A stretch of 33,894 nt of DNA, from positions 1-33,894 of the forward strand of contig JAGOSA010000006.1 of assembly GCA_018062505.1 (NCBI GenBank). The letters run 5' to 3'. The position numbers and the translations under genes are program-made. The number at the start of each line of letters is the position of its first letter. Position 1 is the first letter of the stretch. Below the pieces are notes generated by a model that searched no databases, had not been told where the DNA came from, and was given only the letters and a program-made list of their open reading frames with translations. This document shows, one piece after another, positions 7,209 through 32,814 of the stretch. The DNA is from Minisyncoccota bacterium (lineage in GTDB: Bacteria; Patescibacteriota; Minisyncoccia; Phycocordibacterales; UBA9973).

Positions 7209-9281
7209 CTAGATATCGAGATTCGCCATCTTCGCATTGGACTGGATGAATGATTTGCGCGGAGCAACTTCAGAACCCATGAGCGTGTCGAAAACTTTGT
7301 TGGCTTCTTCGGCATCGTCGATAGTTACCTGCTTGAGGATGCGGCGAGCTGGATCCATTGTTGTTTCCCAGAGTTCGTCAGCATTCATTTCACCGAGACC
7401 TTTGTAGCGCTGAATGTGGATTTTAGTTGAAGGCTTCTTCTTTGTATCCTCCTCGTTTTCCTCGTCTTCATTTTCTGCGCTTTCGTCAGATGCTTCTACA
7501 TCTTCGATAGCAACATCGTCGTACTTGCCGAGAATTTTATTTTTATCTTCGTCAGTGTACGCATAGTGGACTTCTTTGCCGCGCTTGATTTTGTAAAGTG
7601 GTGGCTGCGCAATGTAGACATAGCCTGCATCGATAACGCTTCGGAAGTAGCGGAACATGAGCGTCAAAATAAGCGTACGAATGTGGGCACCGTCCACGTC
7701 GGCATCGGTTGCGAGAATAATTTTGTGGTAGCGGATTTTTGAAATATCCATCGTGTCGCCGATCGAAGTTCCCATCGCAATGACGAGGTTCTTGATCTGC
7801 TCGCTGCCGAGCATACGGTCGAGGCGAGCGCGCTCGACGTTGAGGATTTTACCGCGGAGTGGAAGCACGGCCTGTGTCTTTCGGTCGCGTCCCATTTTGG
7901 CTGTACCACCCGCAGAGTCTCCCTCTACGATGAAGACTTCTGATTCGCTAGCGTCTTTGCTCTGACAGTCTGAAAGCTTGCCCGGAAGCGTCATGCCTTC
8001 GAGCGCGCCTTTGCGGAGAATAGAATCCTTGGCAGCTTTCGCAGCTTTGCGAGCGCGAAGTGCAAGAACAGCTTTGCCGATGATGCCTTTTGCATCGTCT
8101 GGATTTTCTTCGAGGTATTGTTCAAATGCTTCACCGAACACTTTCTGGACTGCGCCTTGCGCTTCAGTTGATCCGAGCTTACCTTTTGTCTGGCCTTCGA
8201 ACTGAATTTCAGCGAGCTTAACAGAAATGATTGCCGTCAAACCTTCGAGAACGTCGTCGCCAGTAAAGCCACCATCGACTTCTTTGAGAATATTATTTTT
8301 CTTTGCAAAAGCATTTACCAAACGAGTAAGAGCCATCTTGAAACCAGCAACGTGCGTGCCGCCTTCTGCTGTGTAGATGTTGTTGGCAAATGGCATGAGA
8401 CGATCAGCCATGTCATCGACATACTGGAGCGCAACTTCAACGCCGACGCCGTCGATTTCTTTTTCGACATAGAAAATTTTATCGTGGACAGGCTTGTGAT
8501 GTTTGTTGGTGAATTTAACAAGAGAAACAAGACCGCCTTCAAAGAAGAACGAAGTAGACGGAAGTTCGAGGCCGAGATCTTTGATCCAATATGTATCAGT
8601 ATCGTCGAGTTTGCCTTTGAATTCGCGAGCATCAACGATTTCGATGCGAAGCGAAGAAACGAGGTAAGCTTGCTGACGCAAGTGATTAACGACAGTTTCA
8701 AAGTTGAAAGTTGTATCAGGGAAAATGATGCCGTCCGGCTGGAATGTAATGATTGTGCCGTTCATTTTTGAAGTACCAACTTTTTTGACTGCAGCTTTTT
8801 TCTTGCCTTGCGAATATTCCTGCATGAAAATAGCACCTTCGCGGTGAACTTCAGCGCGAGTGTAGACAGAGAGAGCGTTAACAACAGAAGCACCCACACC
8901 GTGGAGACCGCCAGAAACTTTGTAGCCAGAATCATCGCCGCCGAATTTACCGCCGGCGTGGAGCGTGGTCATGACAGTTTCAAGTGCTGAAACTTTTGTC
9001 TTTGGGTGAATTCCAGTCGGAATACCGCGGCCGTTGTCGGCGACGCGAATTTTGTTGCCTGGAAGGAGGACGACTTCGATGCGATTACAAAAGCCACCCA
9101 TGGCTTCGTCGCGCGAGTTGTCGAATATTTCCCAAATGAGGTGATGGAGACCGTCAATACCTGTAGTACCGATGTACATTCCGGGACGTTTTCGGACTGG
9201 TTCGAGACCTTCAAGGACGGAAATTGCCTCCGCTCCGTAATTGCCTTTCTTAGGCTTTTTCTCTTCTGTATCTTTGGCCAT
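7209..9281 (-). CDS. gyrB: DNA gyrase subunit B
   Basis: 690 aa from the ATG at 9281; supplies the ATPase and TOPRIM parts of DNA gyrase, which introduces negative supercoils. GHKL ATPase motifs: EIFDNSRDEA (about 51-60), VADNGRGIP (80-88), GGLHGVGASVVNALS (about 124). TOPRIM: EGDSAGGTAKMGRDRKTQAVLPLRG, then the DADVDGAHIRTL acidic cluster. The C-terminal GyrB signature QRYKGLGEMNADELWETTMDP precedes NLDI. An acidic insert of about 25 residues (EDVEASDESAENEDEENEED) lies within TOPRIM. A start 11 codons upstream is possible, but the -10 box (9292-9297) overlaps that stretch. No gyrA is adjacent. ParE is less likely. Confidence 0.95.
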   Translation of the reverse strand: MAKDTEEKKPKKGNYGAEAISVLEGLEPVRKRPGMYIGTTGIDGLHHLIWEIFDNSRDEAMGGFCNRIEVVLLPGNKIRVADNGRGIPTGIHPKTKVSALETVMTTLHAGGKFGGDDSGYKVSGGLHGVGASVVNALSVYTRAEVHREGAIFMQEYSQGKKKAAVKKVGTSKMNGTIITFQPDGIIFPDTTFNFETVVNHLRQQAYLVSSLRIEIVDAREFKGKLDDTDTYWIKDLGLELPSTSFFFEGGLVSLVKFTNKHHKPVHDKIFYVEKEIDGVGVEVALQYVDDMADRLMPFANNIYTAEGGTHVAGFKMALTRLVNAFAKKNNILKEVDGGFTGDDVLEGLTAIISVKLAEIQFEGQTKGKLGSTEAQGAVQKVFGEAFEQYLEENPDDAKGIIGKAVLALRARKAAKAAKDSILRKGALEGMTLPGKLSDCQSKDASESEVFIVEGDSAGGTAKMGRDRKTQAVLPLRGKILNVERARLDRMLGSEQIKNLVIAMGTSIGDTMDISKIRYHKIILATDADVDGAHIRTLILTLMFRYFRSVIDAGYVYIAQPPLYKIKRGKEVHYAYTDEDKNKILGKYDDVAIEDVEASDESAENEDEENEEDTKKKPSTKIHIQRYKGLGEMNADELWETTMDPARRILKQVTIDDAEEANKVFDTLMGSEVAPRKSFIQSNAKMANLDI

Positions 9282-9291
9282 ATGTCCCAAA

Positions 9292-9297
9292 AGTATA
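9292..9297 (-). promoter_or_regulatory. Extended -10 box of gyrB
   Basis: TGC-TATACT (extended -10) with 10 nt to the ATG at 9281, so the predicted leader is only about 3 nt. No good -35 box. Confidence 0.5.
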
Positions 9298-9403
9298 GCA
9301 TTTTTTAGAGGCAAATGCGAGAGATTTTACGGAGAAATTGTGGGAAAAAGAGCTTATTATATAAGGATCGATTTGTAAAATCATTACAAAAATCAATACG
9401 CTA

Positions 9404-9432
9404 TTGACTAAATGTAAATATAATGCTATTAT
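9404..9432 (+). promoter_or_regulatory. Promoter of the candidate RNA gene
   Basis: TTGACT (9404-9409), 17-nt spacer, TATTAT (9427-9432), reading away from gyrB. An imperfect inverted repeat (GATTTGTAA / TTACAAAAATC, about 9370-9395) lies just upstream. Confidence 0.7.
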
Positions 9433-9439
9433 GTCAATA

Positions 9440-9735
9440 CCGATATATTACATATCTTAGACAACATCGGACTTATGTCTAAGTGCTTATCAAGATTTAT
9501 CCTATTTTGATAGGTGGGCGACAGGATAGCGCTGCAACATTTCAGCAAGTACAGACCTAAAACAAACTGATCTAATTTGCAGTGGCAAACAACGACAAAG
9601 GGAAATTGCTCATTGGGCACAAAATGAATCCGAATAGGTAGGGAAATTCAAAGTAGTGGGCAAAAGTACACAAAAAAAGCAGTGTCCGAAAGGACAAAAC
9701 CTAGGGCGCTTCCAATAACTTGGAAGCGCTTTTTT
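9440..9735 (+). ncRNA. Candidate structured RNA of unknown class
   Basis: About 295 nt between a consensus promoter and a strong intrinsic terminator, with no convincing ORF on either strand. Local stems: CTTAGAC/GTCTAAG (9456-9462/9477-9483), which competes with CCGAT/ATCGG (9440-9444/9466-9470); TATCAA/TTGATA, which competes with TATCCT/AGGATA (9499-9504/9523-9528); TTTGC-AGTG-GCAAA (about 9576-9589); and TGTCC-GAAA-GGACA with a GNRA loop (9683-9696). I looked for tmRNA, RNase P, SRP and 6S signatures and found none. It is divergent from gyrB and convergent with pheT. It could still be an unrecognised divergent member of a known class. Confidence 0.6.
9706..9735 (+). terminator. Intrinsic terminator of the RNA gene
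   Basis: 9-bp GC-rich stem (9706-9714 / 9721-9729), loop ATAACT, then TTTTTT. Confidence 0.9.
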
Positions 9736-9739
9736 ATTC

Positions 9740-11599
9740 TTATCTCACCTCCCAACCCTTCCCCTTCAGCGAATCAGTAACTTTTTGCATAATAGGTTCA
9801 ATCTCAGCATCGGTCAGCGTTTTATCATTCGACTGAAACACCGTTCGGAAAGCAACGCTCGTCTTCCCTTCTTTTGTAAATGTATCAAAAAGTCTTGGAC
9901 CGGCAACGACAAGATCGCCGGCATTTTCTCGGATAGTTGTGGCGACAGTCTCAGGATCAGTTCCCTCGCTCACCCAAAGCGCGACATCGCGAACGATAAA
10001 TGGATAGGGCGACCAGTTTTTGAATTTCTTGATTTCGATCGGATCAGGATAAATGTACATTTCCGCTGGATGGTCTTTCGTGCCTTCTTCAAGCGTGCAT
10101 TCTTGTACGCCTTTTTTGTCGGCCCAAGCAACATGGATTTCTTCGTCTTCAGTTCCATCTTTTGGAAACACTGTTCCGATCTCGAACAATTTTATTTCAT
10201 CCATCTCAAGAAGCGCTGCGTTTTTGACGTTGAGATCGTACGCTTCTTTGAGTCCGTCTTTGAGATTTGTGCGGAGCGCAGATTTATCTTTGGCAGCGTA
10301 CGCAACTTCGATTTCACCTTTCTTTCGAAAAGCGTATGTCATGACTTCAGAAAAACCAGACTGGAGGAAATGCGCGCGAGCCATCATTATTTTTGCGCTT
10401 GTGTCATTGAGCTTTGGCGAAAAACCGGCAGCACCGCCGACAGTAGCAGCAATATCCGGCAAAGTACTTGGAATTTTATCGTAACCGATTACGCGGCCAA
10501 TTTCGTCCGCAACATCAGGAACAATCGTGAGATCTGGACGATTGCTTGGCGGAGTCAAAGTAAGGTCATCGCCATTTCGCGAGTACGTGTGATTGTATTG
10601 CTTAAAGATTTTTTCGATATCATCTGCTGAAACTGCAAGGCCGAGAATTTTAGAAATGTCTGCTGTCGCAAAAGAAATAGTCTTTGCAGTAAAAATGAAA
10701 GCATTGCCGGCTGGATACATATCGACAACTTCTTCAAATATTGCCTCTGGACACATTTGCGCAATCGCTGAAGAAAGTTCAAGCATGGCAAATGGCGCAA
10801 GCTCTGGCGTAACATCATTTTCAAAACGCTTTGCAGCATCGGTGAGGAGGCCGAGTCGTCGAGCAGTTTTACGAACAGTAATTGGTTCAAAGTTTGCGAC
10901 CTCCAAAACAATATCAGTTGTGTCGGTATCGACTTCAGCTTTTCGTCCACCCTTTACGCCAGCAATAGCAAGCACTGCGCTTCCGCCATCTCGCGGACCG
11001 CTTGTGATGACAAGTTCATCATTCTTGAGTGTGAGGTATGCATCAGTACCGAGGAGTGTGACGCCTTCAACTGGGTGAATGATATTTCGTACTGTTATTT
11101 TTTGTGTGCCGTCAGATTCTGTTTCAATTTTCTTCGCATCAAAAGCATGTGTTGGCTGACCGATATCAAAAAGCACGAGGTTTGTCGCATCGACAATGTT
11201 GTTGATCGAGCGCTGACCAATCGATTCGAGATACTTCACAACCCACTCCGGAGATGGACCGACTTTGACGTTGCGAACAATGCGGCCCATGTAGCGGCGA
11301 CAGCGATCATCTTCGATTTCGATAGAAAGTTTTGTTGGCTGTGCTTCCGGCACTTTGTAGTACTGCGTCGGATCAGCAAAAGGAATGTTGAGGAGGCCGG
11401 CAATTTCTTTGGCCACACCGTAGTGCGACAACAAGTCGTGCGCGCGATCCGGCAAGACCTTGAGATCAAAAATAGTATTGTCGCCAACTTGATCCATCGA
11501 TTCGATTTCACAAACATGGAACGTAAAAACCTCAGCCAGTTTCTGTGGAGCTGGAATTTCGGGAACGTATGCTTTTAGCCAGTTGTAGGAGATTTTCAT
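9740..11599 (-). CDS. pheT: Phenylalanyl-tRNA synthetase beta chain, short form
   Basis: 619 aa; partner of PheS in the PheRS tetramer. The N-terminus (MKISYNWLKAYVPE) runs directly into FDLKVLPDRAHDLLSHYGVAKEIAGLL, so the EMAP/OB tRNA-binding insert that follows residue 39 in the roughly 795-aa E. coli type is missing. A B3/4 editing-type region (about 110-270), a B5 domain (about 300-370, ending NRPDLTIVPDVADEIGRVIGYDKIP) and a C-terminal FDX-ACB anticodon-binding domain (about 530-619, SPYPFIVRDVALWVSEG) are visible. It starts 18 nt after pheS (operon). Confidence 0.95.
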   Translation of the reverse strand: MKISYNWLKAYVPEIPAPQKLAEVFTFHVCEIESMDQVGDNTIFDLKVLPDRAHDLLSHYGVAKEIAGLLNIPFADPTQYYKVPEAQPTKLSIEIEDDRCRRYMGRIVRNVKVGPSPEWVVKYLESIGQRSINNIVDATNLVLFDIGQPTHAFDAKKIETESDGTQKITVRNIIHPVEGVTLLGTDAYLTLKNDELVITSGPRDGGSAVLAIAGVKGGRKAEVDTDTTDIVLEVANFEPITVRKTARRLGLLTDAAKRFENDVTPELAPFAMLELSSAIAQMCPEAIFEEVVDMYPAGNAFIFTAKTISFATADISKILGLAVSADDIEKIFKQYNHTYSRNGDDLTLTPPSNRPDLTIVPDVADEIGRVIGYDKIPSTLPDIAATVGGAAGFSPKLNDTSAKIMMARAHFLQSGFSEVMTYAFRKKGEIEVAYAAKDKSALRTNLKDGLKEAYDLNVKNAALLEMDEIKLFEIGTVFPKDGTEDEEIHVAWADKKGVQECTLEEGTKDHPAEMYIYPDPIEIKKFKNWSPYPFIVRDVALWVSEGTDPETVATTIRENAGDLVVAGPRLFDTFTKEGKTSVAFRTVFQSNDKTLTDAEIEPIMQKVTDSLKGKGWEVR

Positions 11600-24679: not shown

Positions 24680-24688
24680 AGATGTTTT

Positions 24689-25074
24689 GCGGTGTTTTTT
24701 GATTGATGTTCGAACATTTTTTGAGCAAAACCCCCAATAAGGAAGCCAGCCCCGCCACTGCTCGACAAGCTCGCCACACCACAGAAAAATACTCTTTGCT
24801 CTTTTCATTTTGCGCGCGCCCGATTTTTTCTTCTTTTAATGAAAAGAGTATTTTTCTGTGGTGTTCTGCCTTCCAAGTATTCAGGCAGGTGGCGGGGCTG
24901 TCCTCAATTTGATTTCGCAAAGGAAAAGCGGAATTCCCCCCAAACCCCCCTTCCGCTTTTCCTTTGCTCAAACGGAACGGGAACGGAAGCAGGCGGGCAA
25001 AAATTCCTTCCCCCCAACCCCCTTCCTTTTTGCCCGCCTGCTTGGGCTTCGCCCCCAAAACTTTTCGGCGGGAC
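24689..25074 (+). repeat. Left 386-bp inverted repeat, hairpin array
   Basis: As far as I can align by eye it is identical to the reverse complement of 32184-32569. It holds nested or serial perfect stems: 24748-24758/24889-24899 (11 bp) enclosing 24776-24796/24844-24864 (21 bp); 24917-24933/24951-24967 (17 bp) with loop TTCCCCCCAAACCCCCC; 24987-25003/25027-25043 (17 bp) with a loop of two C-runs; and GGGC-TTC-GCCC at 25044-25054. The inner end touches the stop codon of the ATPase gene. Apparent ORFs through it are by-products. Confidence 0.95.
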
Positions 25075-27413
25075 TATTTAACAATTGCTACAAAATCGGC
25101 GATTTTTGTTTTCAGTTGCCCAAGTCCGTGATCATCTCCTACATCAACATGCGAAGTCGTCCAGTTACAAAACGAATATATTTGCTTGATTTTGTCCAAA
25201 TCGCCGTCATCTATCTCTTTATTACATTTTACACCATCAATCGCTGTTGGGAAATCATTTGCGTTCCAGTGCAATAAATTATTTTTGATATGCCTTTCAA
25301 CCTCATATCGCAAATATTGCCCATATTCAACGACTTTCAATTCAAAATCAAGACTTGCTGGGGGAATTTTTGCCAAGTCAGTTTCAAAATTTTTCAACTT
25401 ATCCAAAAATTTATCGGATTTGCTTTTGCAAATAAAACTTCCGCCAAATTCTTTTTTGTTTCTGATTAGATTATATTCGTTGCAATGTTTATCAAACCGC
25501 TTTCTTAGAAACTTGAAAAAAGTTCTGTGGTGAGAAAAAACAAAAATCTGCGAAAAGTTTTTTTGTTCTTCGGCGATTAAATCAACAAGACAGCTCAAAT
25601 TGCTATTATCCAAACTCGTGATCGGGTCATCGAAAACAAGCACTTTTTGTTTTTTATCTTTTTGTATATCAAGAAATGCAAAGAAAAAACAAAGGGACAA
25701 AACCTGAATTTCCCCTTCGGAAAGTCCCTCTTTGAAATCTCGTTCATTTCCCTCAAAATCCAAAACCTTGAACGCAAACGGAAATTCGGTTTTGTTTCCT
25801 GTCGGGGCTGTTTTTGGTTCAAGCTTAAAACTAAAATTGAAATTTTTGAAATAATCTTGAATTTTAGACAAGAGATTTGAAAAAGCCTTTGTCGAGCAAT
25901 GATCTTCGTATTCTTTTAACGCTGTTTCGTATTCTGTTTTTAGCGTAGCAAATACATCTTGTAGGGCTTTTTGTTCTTTTTCTTTTTGCTCTTTCTTTTG
26001 TTGTTCTTTTATCTTGTTCCCATTGATAAAAACCAACTCTTTTTCAATTTCAGCAATTCTTTTACTGCTTGAATCAATTCGTGCTTGAAGTTTTTCATCG
26101 GTGTTATCGGATTTGAATTTAGTAATAAGCTTGTTCTTTTGATCTACAAAATCACCAATCGCCTTAAAAAACGCCTCAATCACTTCAAATTCAGTTTTTA
26201 CCTTGTTATATAATTCTTGAATATTCTCTTTGCTCGGTTTCGCAAGTTTTGTTATTTTACCGCTCAACTCCTTTATTTCTTTTACGGCTGGCTTTTTATA
26301 TGTTTTTTCGTCCTCAACAGAGTAGATATTTGGTATTTTGTAATTTTGGTCTAATTTCTTAAGTTCAAGAAAAATGCTATTCAAATCAAAATCGGAAACG
26401 GCTTGCGTAATTTGTGATATTTCATCAATCAAAGCTTGCTTGTCTTTCTCAAATTGTTGTACCTGTGTTTTATATGTTGTGTCGTAAATTTGCTCGTATA
26501 GATCAATAATATTTTTTATTCCTGCTTCTTCATTTTCAGATTGGCAAAAAGGACACTGGTTTTGGTGTGCCTTTCTAATTTCAAAACCAGTTTCAAAGAA
26601 TGATTTATGCGTTTTGACTTTATCAATCAAAGTCTGCTCGGCTTCTATTTTTGCCTGCTCTTTTAGGTCAAAATCAAAAAGTGCTTGATAGGTTTTCTCG
26701 TCAGAAAGGGAAATTTCAACTTCTTCTGTCAACAAGCCTTTTATGTCGCTTTGGATACTGGCGACTTTCTTTTGCAATCCCTGATCAGTTTCAAGGCTCT
26801 TTTCAGATTCTTTTTTCTCCTTTCCCAGTGTTTGCTTTGCTGTTTTGATTTCTTCTTCGCTTTTGTCTTTGTAATTTTTGAAAAAAGGTTGCTCGTCATC
26901 GGTCAAAGCAAACGCCAAAGAATCCCGATTTGCGGAATTGAAATCTTTTATTTTTTGGTCTTGTTCTTCTTTCGCTTTTTTCGCTTTATCTCTTACGCCT
27001 CGCAAATTGATAGCGTCGCTATCAAACTCAATAATCATTTTACCCGACTCTTGTTCCTGCCCGTTTTGTGTTGTATCTCGTCTGTGTCCCAAATGAACAT
27101 TTTTATCAACAAATTCACGATCAAAAAACAGAATAGAATCTTTGGCGATTTTATTATCCCAATCGTTATTTACGGGATATTTTTTCTCGCCGTCATCAAA
27201 GACTAAACACGCTTCGACTGGTTTGTATTTCCCAAGATCCTTGTTTTCCGAAACATTTTTCAACAGGTTGGCAATTGAGCTTTTGCCACTTCCATTTTCA
27301 CCATAAAGGATATTCACTTCATCATGAAAAGTTTCGTTATTCAAAAAAGGTTGCCAATCAAAATCTTGGAACGATTTATAACCTTTGATTTTTTTGATAC
27401 TTTTCAGCTTCAT
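25074..27413 (-). CDS. RloC/PrrC-like ABC-ATPase, putative anticodon nuclease
   Basis: 779 aa. N-terminal Walker A GENGSGKSS (38-46); long coiled coils (about 140-285 and 300-510) broken by a zinc hook C287-P-F-C290; ABC signature LSEGE (564-568), Walker B VLVFDD (591-596), D-loop SLD and H-loop SHH (627-629). The tail has R702xxxE706 and H755, the arrangement of the R-E-H triad in PrrC/RloC tRNA anticodon nucleases. RloC proteins have exactly this zinc-hook ATPase layout and occur with type I restriction loci, acting when restriction fails. It starts 6 nt after the methylase gene, last in the operon. An AAA_13-type ATPase without tRNase activity is the alternative. Confidence 0.75.
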   Translation of the reverse strand: MKLKSIKKIKGYKSFQDFDWQPFLNNETFHDEVNILYGENGSGKSSIANLLKNVSENKDLGKYKPVEACLVFDDGEKKYPVNNDWDNKIAKDSILFFDREFVDKNVHLGHRRDTTQNGQEQESGKMIIEFDSDAINLRGVRDKAKKAKEEQDQKIKDFNSANRDSLAFALTDDEQPFFKNYKDKSEEEIKTAKQTLGKEKKESEKSLETDQGLQKKVASIQSDIKGLLTEEVEISLSDEKTYQALFDFDLKEQAKIEAEQTLIDKVKTHKSFFETGFEIRKAHQNQCPFCQSENEEAGIKNIIDLYEQIYDTTYKTQVQQFEKDKQALIDEISQITQAVSDFDLNSIFLELKKLDQNYKIPNIYSVEDEKTYKKPAVKEIKELSGKITKLAKPSKENIQELYNKVKTEFEVIEAFFKAIGDFVDQKNKLITKFKSDNTDEKLQARIDSSSKRIAEIEKELVFINGNKIKEQQKKEQKEKEQKALQDVFATLKTEYETALKEYEDHCSTKAFSNLLSKIQDYFKNFNFSFKLEPKTAPTGNKTEFPFAFKVLDFEGNERDFKEGLSEGEIQVLSLCFFFAFLDIQKDKKQKVLVFDDPITSLDNSNLSCLVDLIAEEQKNFSQIFVFSHHRTFFKFLRKRFDKHCNEYNLIRNKKEFGGSFICKSKSDKFLDKLKNFETDLAKIPPASLDFELKVVEYGQYLRYEVERHIKNNLLHWNANDFPTAIDGVKCNKEIDDGDLDKIKQIYSFCNWTTSHVDVGDDHGLGQLKTKIADFVAIVK

Positions 27414-27419
27414 ATTTAC

Positions 27420-29264
27420 TTATAGAATTTCAAAAATAGTTTCCTTGATGTTTTCTTCCGACTCCTCAATTTTTGCTTTCATTTCTGATATTTTTTTCTG
27501 TTCAGCAACAATTTTATTTCCAAAATCATTCTGTTTTTCAATGGAAACATAATCAATCAAGTAATTTGAAAATTCAGTTTTATTGATTGCCAGTTTTGAT
27601 ACACCCTTTGCCAAATCAGCGACAATTTGCTCTCTTATCGCATTAAAATATGCGTGATAAAAAGACAAATTTACTGGATATTTTGAATCTTTTTTGGGCG
27701 ATAATATAAAGCAAAGATCACTTGCGATGAATTTTCCATTTACATAATGGGTTCTGCCCAGAGATCCCGCCGCACCGAAAGCAAAAATCAAAGCTTCACA
27801 ATCATGAGTGTATGAATTATGAGTACTCCATTCTTGCGCGGCAGTAATAAAATCAAATTCGCCTTCGGTTTTTTTCGTGCTTTGTAATGTTCCTTTCTGT
27901 ATATCAAACAAAGTTGAAATTTCTACTGATTCGTTTCCGTTCTCTCTGTTTGAAATCAAGTATTTATTTACAAACAAACTAAATTTTTTATTTAGCTTAT
28001 CTTTAGAAACAACAATAAAATCAATTTTATTATCTAAACTCTTTTTTCCACTCTTAAAATCTGTAATCAATTTTACTGCTTCGGGTAGATCGTTTTGTTC
28101 AATTTTCCGTCTTTGTTCCCCCTTTTCATATCCGTCATTACTTACCTTTATAAAAATGATATCTTTTGATTTTTTCGCAAATTCTTTGTCAAAAAATAAT
28201 ACGCTTGTTTTTGCACCCGCATACGGCTTAAAAACTGTGTTATGAAGCGAAACGACTGCATATAAACCATTTTCTATAGCAAGCTCTCTTAATTTCGCAT
28301 AAAGATTAGACGGGTTAGCAACTATCCCGTCAGGAACAACAACGCCAGCCTTTCCGTTAATATTCAAATGTTCAATAATGTAATCGACAAAAAGTGCTTC
28401 AGCTTTCTTACATTGAATAGTAAAGCGTTTGTGCGGACTAATTCCACCTTTCGGTGTCATAAATGGTGGATTGGCGAGAATTACATCAAATGTTTCGTCC
28501 CAACGCTTTTCGCTTGTCAGTGAATCGTATTCGTGGATTTTCGGTTCAGGGAATCCATGCAAATACATATTCACCAGCGCTAATTTCACCATATCGGGCG
28601 AAATATCATAACCCGCAAGATTGTTCATCAACTTCAATTTCTCGTCTGGGGTGAGTGCTTTTTCTTTATTCTGTTTCAAAATATGTTTGTAAGCTGAAAT
28701 CAAAAATCCAGCCGTTCCACAAGCGGGGTCAAGGATTGTTTCGCTTTTCTTCGGATCAACCACTTCAACAATAAAATCAATAATGTGCCGTGGCGTGCGG
28801 AATTGTCCTGCGTCGCCTTGGCTTCCGAGAATAGAAAGCAAATATTCAAAAGCATTTCCTAAATTTTCGCTGTGTTCATAATTAAATTCGTTTATCTCTT
28901 TCAGGAAAAGCGAAAGAGTACGCGGGTCGTTGTATGGCAAAAACGCGCCTTTGAAAATATTTCTGAACAATTGCGGAATATGCGGATTTTTTGGCATATT
29001 CGTAATTGCCTGAACATAAAGATCAAGGCGTTCTTGTCCCGAAAGTTTGTTGTCCAAAATTTTCGTCCATGAAAATTTTTTCCAATCATCAACGAAAAAT
29101 TGAGTTTTCAATCCAACTTCTTCGTTTTCCTTATCCATATCGTCCATAAACTTATAGATAAGAGCAGTGGTGATTTGCTCAACCTGCGCTTTTGGATCAG
29201 GAACTTTCCCGACAAGAATTTGTCGGGCAGAGTCAAGTTTTCGTTTTGTAGTTTGATCAAGCAT
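27420..29264 (-). CDS. Type I restriction methyltransferase fused to a specificity domain
   Basis: 614 aa; N6-adenine methylation. HsdM part: helical N-domain (1-130), AdoMet motif DPACGTAGF (179-187) preceded by GQFRTPRHI, catalytic NPPF (265-268). From about 440 on it becomes HsdS-like: one target-recognition domain (SVEISTLFDIQKGTLQST to SNYLIDYVSIEKQN) and a C-terminal helical spacer (IVAEQKKISEMKAKIEESEE). No separate hsdS exists in the cassette, so this fusion with a single TRD must set specificity; dimers would read a symmetric bipartite site. It starts 11 nt after hsdR. Confidence 0.9.
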   Translation of the reverse strand: MLDQTTKRKLDSARQILVGKVPDPKAQVEQITTALIYKFMDDMDKENEEVGLKTQFFVDDWKKFSWTKILDNKLSGQERLDLYVQAITNMPKNPHIPQLFRNIFKGAFLPYNDPRTLSLFLKEINEFNYEHSENLGNAFEYLLSILGSQGDAGQFRTPRHIIDFIVEVVDPKKSETILDPACGTAGFLISAYKHILKQNKEKALTPDEKLKLMNNLAGYDISPDMVKLALVNMYLHGFPEPKIHEYDSLTSEKRWDETFDVILANPPFMTPKGGISPHKRFTIQCKKAEALFVDYIIEHLNINGKAGVVVPDGIVANPSNLYAKLRELAIENGLYAVVSLHNTVFKPYAGAKTSVLFFDKEFAKKSKDIIFIKVSNDGYEKGEQRRKIEQNDLPEAVKLITDFKSGKKSLDNKIDFIVVSKDKLNKKFSLFVNKYLISNRENGNESVEISTLFDIQKGTLQSTKKTEGEFDFITAAQEWSTHNSYTHDCEALIFAFGAAGSLGRTHYVNGKFIASDLCFILSPKKDSKYPVNLSFYHAYFNAIREQIVADLAKGVSKLAINKTEFSNYLIDYVSIEKQNDFGNKIVAEQKKISEMKAKIEESEENIKETIFEIL

Positions 29265-29275
29265 AATATTTTTGG

Positions 29276-31786
29276 TTACCTCATATAAACATTAACGGGA
29301 ACATAATCTTTCACATAAGTAGGAACAGTTTCCCGCCAACCGTTCAATTGCTTAAATTCTGCCATTGTAAATCCAGCAAATTCTCTCGGAAATCGTTGAT
29401 TGTTTATTTCATTTCTAAAATATTCGCTCGTAACATACGCTTTCAGATAATTTTTGATATGCGGAACATATTTGCTTTCGGGCTTGTAGATTGAGATAAA
29501 CTTTTCGCATTCTTCTTCCAATTTTTCGTCTTTGGATTTGAATACATCAATCAAGCCAAAAGCTCGTTCCAAAAATTCACGCCAAGAGATACGGCGATCA
29601 AGATTTTCGCTCTTGCGAATTTTTTCAAGATTCAGGAATAATTGCGGTTTGTCTTCGTATTTGTCCCGCATAATCTGCACAGCTTTGTCCCACTGCTCGC
29701 TTTCGACGGCAGACTTTACTTCGGGGTCATTTTGTAATTCTTCGCGGGCTTTCTCAAAAAGTTTTCTATCAACTTTCATTCCCTCGATTCCAACAGGTGT
29801 TTCGGTTAGGGATTTTACTTTGTCGGGATTGAAAACTTCTATTTCATCAATATCAACGCCGACAGGTCCTTCTCCGCCCGTTCCTTTTTGTTTTATTGGC
29901 AATTGCAAAACCTCGTCATAATCAAACTTTTCTTCAAAGTATTCGCAGTTTGCGAAGAAGTCGAAAAATTTGAAATGGTCTTTTGGTTTTTTGTGCTTCT
30001 CGCCGTATTCATCGGTATATTCAAAAGTGAATTTTCTTGTTCCTCGTCCTTTGATCTGAATAAAATCAGTCGGCGAAAAGACTGGGCGCATAAGTGCAAG
30101 ATTCAAAATATCTTGGCAATCATAACCAGTCGTCATCATGCCGACAGTTACGCAAACCCTTGTTTTGCTTGATTTATAATTCTCTAAAAATTTTGTATGA
30201 CCGCTTAAATTGTTGTTTGCAAAATTGATCGTGAATTGCTGACTGTCTGCAATGTTTGAGGTTATTTGCACAGCAAAATCAGAGTTGTATTTGTCTGGCC
30301 AAAGTTGGCTCGCCATTTGATTTAGCGTTTGGGTGATTTTTGAAGCGTGTTTTTGGCTAACGCAAAATATAATGCCCTTGCCAATTTCACCGCTTATCGG
30401 GTCTTTGAAAGCATTTTCAATAAATGTCTGGCAAAAAACACGATTTGTTTTTTCGGAAAAGAATTTCTTTTCAAAATCCTTTTGGAAAAATGTTTCTTCG
30501 CTTTCTCCGCCTTCTTCGTCCTCAACCATAACCGCATAACCCTTTTCCGAAAGTAATTCGGTGGTGATGTCGGTTCGTGCGTCTGAAACAATGGGATTGA
30601 TCAAAAATCCTTCTTTTACGCCGTCAAGCAAGCTAAAACGAAAAGTTGGCTCACCGTTTTTGCAGCCAAAAGTCGTGTAAGTGTCCAAGAGTTGCCGTCT
30701 TTCCCAAGCTCGCGGGTCTTTTTGTGATAATTTTTGCGGATCAACATTTTTCAAATAATCTTTCGGCGTTGCGGTTAAGCCCAATTTGTAGCCGATAAAA
30801 TATTCAAAAACTGCTCGCGAGTTTCCACCGATTGCTCGGTGTGATTCGTCGGCAATAACTAAATCAAAATCAGTCGGTGAAAATAGTTTTTTGTACTTGT
30901 CTTGAGAAGAAAGACTTTGAACGGTTGTGATAACCACTTCTGCCTTTTTCCAGTCATCACGATTTTGCTTGTAAATAACAGAAGAAAAGTCGTTGCTCAA
31001 ATAGCGGACAAAGTTTTTGTGGGCTTGGTCTTCCAATTCCAAACGATCAACCAAAAACAAAATTCTTTTTGCGTTTCCAGTTCTTAAAAATAGCTTGATA
31101 ATTGCGGCGGAAATAAGTGTTTTTCCTGTGCCTGTCGCCATTTCAAAAAGAAAACGATCGTTTCCAGCTTCGGCGGATTTTTGCAAAGTGTGAACCGCTT
31201 TGAGCTGATAAGGGCGCAAAATTCGTAAATTTTCGTCCCAAAGATATTGTTCGCGCGTATCTTCTTTGAGATAGCGAGGATCGTCTTTGAAATTTGGATT
31301 TTGCGTAAGTGCAATATAATCTTCTTTGACTTCCTCATCTGCTAAACGCTGATTGTCGGGTTTAAAATCCTGCCTGTGCTTCAAAGATTCTTGTGTTGGA
31401 AATTCCGTAATAATTTCAGGATCACCTCGTTCCAAATCCCAAAAATAATGAAGATTGCCGTTTGAGAGAATTACAAAACGAGCATTTTCGGTGTGGGCGT
31501 ATTTTCTCGCTTGTTCTTTTCCGTCTAACGGATTTTTATCTTCCTTTTTGGCTTCCAAAATAACGAGTGGAAAACCTTTCTCATCAAGCAATAAAAAATC
31601 AATAAAGCCGTTTTTTGTAGATTCAAAATCTTCACCGAAAGCGTCAATGTCTTTTTGGGTAAGTTTTACATTCGGTTCAAGTGAAATATTTGCTTGTCCT
31701 TTTTCATTATCAAAAAATCTCCAGCCCGCTTGTTCAAGGAGTTTGTTTATTTTTATTCGTGCTTTTGCTTCTTTAGAATTTGCCAT
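29276..31786 (-). CDS. hsdR: Type I restriction endonuclease subunit R
   Basis: 836 aa. PD-(D/E)XK nuclease at the N-terminus (D63 in GFIDFLLLD, E78-A-K80 in VILEAKKED). Superfamily 2 motor: Walker A ATGTGKT (217-223), DESH (313-316), GLTATP, and motif VI IKGRGTR. The C-terminal helical domain (about 640-836) would contact the methylase. It is shorter than EcoKI-type HsdR (over 1,000 aa) and closer to EcoEI-type R subunits. It translocates and cuts unmodified DNA together with the M-S fusion. It starts 4 nt after the XRE gene. Confidence 0.93.
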   Translation of the reverse strand: MANSKEAKARIKINKLLEQAGWRFFDNEKGQANISLEPNVKLTQKDIDAFGEDFESTKNGFIDFLLLDEKGFPLVILEAKKEDKNPLDGKEQARKYAHTENARFVILSNGNLHYFWDLERGDPEIITEFPTQESLKHRQDFKPDNQRLADEEVKEDYIALTQNPNFKDDPRYLKEDTREQYLWDENLRILRPYQLKAVHTLQKSAEAGNDRFLFEMATGTGKTLISAAIIKLFLRTGNAKRILFLVDRLELEDQAHKNFVRYLSNDFSSVIYKQNRDDWKKAEVVITTVQSLSSQDKYKKLFSPTDFDLVIADESHRAIGGNSRAVFEYFIGYKLGLTATPKDYLKNVDPQKLSQKDPRAWERRQLLDTYTTFGCKNGEPTFRFSLLDGVKEGFLINPIVSDARTDITTELLSEKGYAVMVEDEEGGESEETFFQKDFEKKFFSEKTNRVFCQTFIENAFKDPISGEIGKGIIFCVSQKHASKITQTLNQMASQLWPDKYNSDFAVQITSNIADSQQFTINFANNNLSGHTKFLENYKSSKTRVCVTVGMMTTGYDCQDILNLALMRPVFSPTDFIQIKGRGTRKFTFEYTDEYGEKHKKPKDHFKFFDFFANCEYFEEKFDYDEVLQLPIKQKGTGGEGPVGVDIDEIEVFNPDKVKSLTETPVGIEGMKVDRKLFEKAREELQNDPEVKSAVESEQWDKAVQIMRDKYEDKPQLFLNLEKIRKSENLDRRISWREFLERAFGLIDVFKSKDEKLEEECEKFISIYKPESKYVPHIKNYLKAYVTSEYFRNEINNQRFPREFAGFTMAEFKQLNGWRETVPTYVKDYVPVNVYMR

Positions 31787-32183: not shown

Positions 32184-32569
32184 GTCCCGCCGAAAAGTTT
32201 TGGGGGCGAAGCCCAAGCAGGCGGGCAAAAAGGAAGGGGGTTGGGGGGAAGGAATTTTTGCCCGCCTGCTTCCGTTCCCGTTCCGTTTGAGCAAAGGAAA
32301 AGCGGAAGGGGGGTTTGGGGGGAATTCCGCTTTTCCTTTGCGAAATCAAATTGAGGACAGCCCCGCCACCTGCCTGAATACTTGGAAGGCAGAACACCAC
32401 AGAAAAATACTCTTTTCATTAAAAGAAGAAAAAATCGGGCGCGCGCAAAATGAAAAGAGCAAAGAGTATTTTTCTGTGGTGTGGCGAGCTTGTCGAGCAG
32501 TGGCGGGGCTGGCTTCCTTATTGGGGGTTTTGCTCAAAAAATGTTCGAACATCAATCAAAAAACACCGC
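32184..32569 (-). repeat. Right 386-bp inverted repeat, hairpin array
   Basis: Reverse complement of 24689-25074, with no difference found in the parts I aligned. On the plus strand its two hairpin loops carry GGGGGTTGGGGGG and GGGGGGTTTGGGGGG, i.e. four G-runs within about 90 bp, which could form a G-quadruplex. The inner end is extended by a second partial copy of its last bases (GTCCCGCC GTCCCGCC). The 150 bp between this repeat and the XRE promoter holds no gene that I can see. Confidence 0.95.
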
Positions 32570-32814
32570 CAATTTTCACTTTTTGTGAAATCGTAAGAAT
32601 TAGCCTCGGCGCAAAGCGCCTCGGCATGGTATTTTTCCGCTATTTTGAAGGCATTTTTGAAATCCAAAACCAAAGTGCGGTCGGCAATGCGGAAGTTCCT
32701 GTGCGAAAGCACAGAGAAAACGAAGTTTTCAGAACCAATCTTTTTTCTTTCGCTTTCAGCGAAAGGTTGAGTGTATTTTTCTTTGATTGCCCAAAAACTA
32801 ATTTTAAAACAATA
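32570..32814 (-). pseudogene. Possible gene remnant beside the right repeat
   Basis: The minus-strand frame here reads like protein (FWAIKEKYTQPFAESERKK, then NFRIADRTLVLDFKNAFKIA and KYHAEALCAEANSYDF) but has no good start of its own and enters the repeat at its 3' end. It may be the 5' part of a gene truncated when the repeat arrived, or merely an open frame in the leader of the recombinase. No family is recognised. Confidence 0.3.

Follow-up and report, generated by a model that had tools for sequence, protein, structure and literature searches.

A candidate orphan small RNA unit in the gap between pheT and gyrB of a Patescibacteria genome

We asked whether the gap between pheT and gyrB in a Minisyncoccota bacterium (Patescibacteria) holds an RNA gene, as a sequence-only reading of this DNA had proposed. 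The window, by which we mean the whole analyzed stretch of 33,894 nucleotides, is contig C20 of a 671,450-base draft genome with a completeness of 79.5%. On its minus strand, pheS, pheT and gyrB follow in succession, and the identity of the latter two was confirmed with Pfam (Table 1). The pheT stop codon is separated from the gyrB ATG by 458 nt, which is unusually long for the family: at most other family loci, the upstream neighbor of gyrB lies in tandem, roughly 250 nt away or closer. We favor, with moderate confidence, a young, lineage-specific noncoding transcription unit on the plus strand, i.e., an orphan small RNA (sRNA) candidate whose function, if any, is putative.

The first 85 nt upstream of gyrB are the promoter region of that gene, with an extended -10 element (TGCTATACT; TGCTATAAT in genome G021) common to both other members of the genus. 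Upstream of the gyrB promoter, a stretch at 9335-9366 that contains TTTTTCCCACA is ~90% conserved with G021 and is perhaps a regulatory site of gyrB. Elsewhere in the window, a type I-like restriction operon is flanked by a 389-bp inverted repeat with 100% identity between its copies (24686-25074 and 32184-32572). The operon could be an invertible or mobile defense cassette, and an assembly artifact is a possible source of the repeat.

Table 1. Coordinates of features in the window
Feature	Positions	Strand	Remarks
gyrB	7209-9281	-	Transcribed away from the putative unit; Pfam
gyrB promoter region	9282-9366	-	Extended -10 TGCTATACT near the ATG; outside the cassette
Sigma-70-type promoter-like site	9404-9432	+	TTGACT-17-TATTAT, TG-extended -10; predicted RNA start at ~9440
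Putative noncoding transcript body	9440-9702	+	Three local hairpins: 9456-9483, 9484-9516, 9530-9584
GNRA-capped hairpin	9683-9696	+	GUCC-GAAA-GGAC, preceded by A7
Strong intrinsic terminator	9703-9735	+	Perfect 10-bp core, UAAC loop, T6 tract
pheT	9740-11599	-	Convergent with the putative unit; stop codon a few nt beyond the unit's terminator; Pfam
AAA_13 ATPase gene	25074-27413		In the repeat-flanked operon; similar to PADLOC candidate PDC-S06
HsdM-like	27420-29264		In the type I-like restriction operon
HsdR-like	29276-31786		In the type I-like restriction operon

Start and stop signals and the predicted fold

Both the consensus promoter and the strong terminator that had been claimed for the gap were found. 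They stand in the right order on the plus strand and frame ~295 bases, so that the unit has its own promoter-like site and intrinsic terminator within an intergenic region, as expected of an intergenic sRNA. We compared both signals with 3,000 dinucleotide shuffles of the gap. A promoter of equal quality arose in 12.5% of the shuffles, and taken alone, the promoter is within chance for AT-rich sequence. A comparable terminator arose in none. The T tract of this terminator is present on the plus strand only, facing the 3' end of pheT, and the terminator therefore suits a plus-strand transcript meeting pheT head-on and not pheT itself. A 12-nt inverted repeat (83%) that spans the promoter (9402-9413/9428-9439) was dismissed, as repeats of this size are expected by chance in AT-rich DNA.

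Several local stems had been described in the transcript, and three hairpins in its body are indeed well supported (pair probabilities of 0.65, 0.92 and 0.81 in the order of Table 1). A degree of structure above chance was not confirmed for the body. Without the terminator, its folding energy had a z score of -1.25, and 22 of 200 shuffles folded equally well; the z score of -2.85 for the whole unit depends on the terminator. There is no sign of selection on the three hairpins, although each is individually well supported. The 3' half of the putative RNA is mostly unpaired and A-rich, and the unit contains no direct repeats of the kind sought as guide-array structure. Antisense pairing with another part of the window was also considered and rejected (best match no better than shuffles).

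Two further structural proposals survived in part. The alternative pairings behind the two mutually exclusive helix pairs exist on paper (CCGAU/AUCGG and UAUCCU/AGGAUA), but no homologue was found and hence covariation lends a switch no backing. The GNRA-capped hairpin is present, but its reverse complement is equally a terminator-like site on the minus strand, with five pairs followed by a T tract. As the hairpin and its preceding A7 double as this site (9696-9683), they need not be an RNA motif. The minus-strand site is well placed behind pheT and probably serves that gene.

Relatives of the unit and content of the same site in the genus

We searched for relatives of the unit at several depths. 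DNA searches of 147 genomes from the family, 397 from the order and 380 from the phylum (these samples overlap), and of phages and plasmids, gave no convincing homologue, and three exact patterns had no match in viral contigs. Only the unit itself was recovered when 31 regions upstream of gyrB were searched with nhmmer at full sensitivity and when the 147 family genomes and 30 loci were searched with a single-sequence covariance model of the three hairpins. Weak DNA matches overlapping the stem at 9488-9519 (in G026, G271 and G182) fall inside Clp-ATPase coding sequence, and the remaining weak matches in relatives are scattered and at chance level. Conserved structure or sequence in relatives, which supports an intergenic sRNA but is not required of young ones, was thus not observed in these searches.

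The comparison of syntenic gyrB-pheT regions for covariation, which had been suggested as a check, had nothing to work on, since no homologue was found, even in the sister genome G020 (itself only 79% complete). The two genomes are otherwise close at this locus: the GyrB N terminus is identical, gyrB shares ~91% DNA identity, and the end of pheT is the same. The G020 gap (locus L013) carries an unrelated cassette, consisting of a promoter (TTGACT-17-TATAAT), a protein gene and a terminator with a long hairpin and a T-rich tail. Like the unit in the window, this cassette lies between pheT and gyrB in the same orientation, with its terminator directly behind the pheT stop; its promoter is ~89 nt from the gyrB start, versus ~123 nt in the window. 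In contrast to the window's unit, it encodes an 83-amino-acid (aa) membrane-type protein, with a basic N terminus and a hydrophobic C-terminal stretch, that has homologues in other family genomes. The DNA of the two bodies cannot be aligned (score equal to that of shuffles; P = 0.53), whereas the noncoding DNA that flanks them remains alignable, and we therefore infer that the content of the site was replaced rather than gradually altered. To judge from these genomes, the content of the gap turns over between close species.

The clearest homologues of the G020 protein (~33% identity) are in G060 and G062, where they are not beside gyrB but near a tRNA gene (loci L061 and L062). Together with the G020 gene (L013, 119-367), they form a small family of basic proteins of 83 to 94 aa with a hydrophobic C terminus, which had no significant Pfam or PHROG match. 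G021, the third member of the genus, has a different synthetase-like gene next to gyrB, with a short promoter-terminator unit and a tRNA-like stretch in between (locus L015, ~1140-1400, upstream of gyrB). The 5' part of that unit is complementary over ~19 nt to the nearby tRNA-like stretch, which matches the tmRNA model at 1146-1217 with 20 bits, below the threshold.

The main rival to a lineage-specific noncoding unit, and second to it in rank, is a functionless relic: after the insertion or replacement of a small cassette in this gap, the gene it carried would be dead or incomplete, and the promoter and terminator, as the only survivors, would give a transcript with no role. We consider this unlikely but worth serious weight. 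It would fit the G020 cassette at the same site, the location of the clearest relatives of its protein elsewhere in family genomes, and the ordinary fold and absent relatives of the window's body. However, no frame of the body matches Pfam even when stop codons are read through, and the failure of the body to align with the G020 gene between alignable flanks argues against that gene having decayed in place; we rejected a decayed copy of it on these two grounds. The terminator is also intact, whereas in an old relic it would be expected to erode.

Transcription, coding potential and known RNA classes

A plainer explanation is that the gap has no dedicated transcript and consists of the gyrB promoter region and terminators that end pheT, with the promoter-like site a chance match. 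The frequency of equally good promoters among the shuffles, the minus-strand terminator-like hairpin with its T tract, and the position of the strong hairpin only a few nucleotides from the pheT stop all agree with this. We nevertheless regard it as improbable, because the T tract of the strong hairpin is confined to the plus strand and the gap well exceeds the family norm.

The absence of a convincing open reading frame (ORF), as previously asserted, was borne out. No plus-strand ORF of 30 aa occurs within 9440-9700, no frame of the body yielded a Pfam match, and as in intergenic sRNAs generally, a conserved coding sequence is absent. The longest plus-strand ORF has 25 codons (GTG start at 9483), and another has 19 codons (GTG start at 9582). 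Both lie downstream of the promoter on its strand and could in principle make the transcript a short-peptide mRNA. There is only a slim chance of this, as neither has an evident Shine-Dalgarno sequence, their codon scores are -0.09 and 0.08 compared with a gene median of 0.26, and the DNA search gave no relatives of either.

The proposed Rfam covariance search gave no match to the unit at the gathering level and none that was convincing at E values up to 10, and a known RNA class was discarded. The signatures of housekeeping RNAs that had been reported missing are missing by the respective models as well: no match was obtained for tmRNA (RF00023), with its tRNA-like domain and tag ORF, RNase P RNA (RF00010), bacterial SRP RNA (RF00169 or RF01854), with its domain IV hairpin, or 6S RNA (RF00013), with its long hairpin and central bubble. 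Diverged RNase P RNA or tmRNA was rejected because a genuine RNase P RNA lies on contig C5 (125 bits) and contig C19 carries a tmRNA candidate that follows smpB directly, scores below the Rfam threshold and is truncated where the contig ends.

A hidden SRP or 6S RNA is very unlikely, since an essential RNA would persist in the sister species, where the unit was not found; the length of the unit is near that of large SRP RNA and RF00169 and RF00013 match nothing in 21 genomes (the window's and 20 relatives), but these models give no match to the unit even at an E value of 10, and its GNRA hairpin does not carry the domain IV sequence of SRP RNA. Separately, at an E value of 0.01, RF00169 matched none of these 21 Patescibacteria genomes, compared with 11 of 14 controls; SRP RNA may have diverged in this lineage or been lost from it.

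A proposed young noncoding transcription unit

The reading that we prefer remains the lineage-specific noncoding unit. RNA polymerase would start near position 9440, in the gap flanked by the divergently oriented gyrB promoter and the 3' end of the convergent pheT, and would stop at the intrinsic terminator. The predicted product, a noncoding RNA ~295 nt long, would form three local hairpins and leave its 3' half largely unpaired. If active, it would most likely act as an ordinary intergenic sRNA, with unpaired stretches base-pairing with mRNAs. It is plausible that the plus strand of this gap is transcribed in the genus, as the G020 site also holds a same-orientation unit of promoter, gene and terminator. 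The earlier proposal of an RNA gene thus stands as a candidate transcription unit that has no convincing ORF and matches no Rfam family, but not as a conserved, structured and functional RNA: the promoter alone is within chance, the body fold is ordinary, and conservation is absent even in the sister species, so that the unit shows no sign of selection. Its body does not appear to belong to a conserved RNA class.

The unit most resembles trans-encoded intergenic bacterial sRNAs, which are a kind and not one family. Like them, it is free-standing, within 50 to 300 nt, without an ORF and species specific. It differs in having no Rfam family and no homologue in our searches. A bolder version would see in this gap a turnover site at which ultra-small bacteria exchange small promoter-terminator cassettes, and in the product of the window's cassette a new regulatory RNA that is functional and adopts alternative folds; it seems to us a long shot.

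The noncoding RNAs of Patescibacteria have received little attention, and our literature search returned no paper on this locus and no survey of such RNAs in the group. As it stands, the unit is one among many orphan intergenic sRNA candidates. If expressed, it would exemplify an RNA gene of very recent origin within a reduced genome, with the sister species showing an alternative occupant of the same site.
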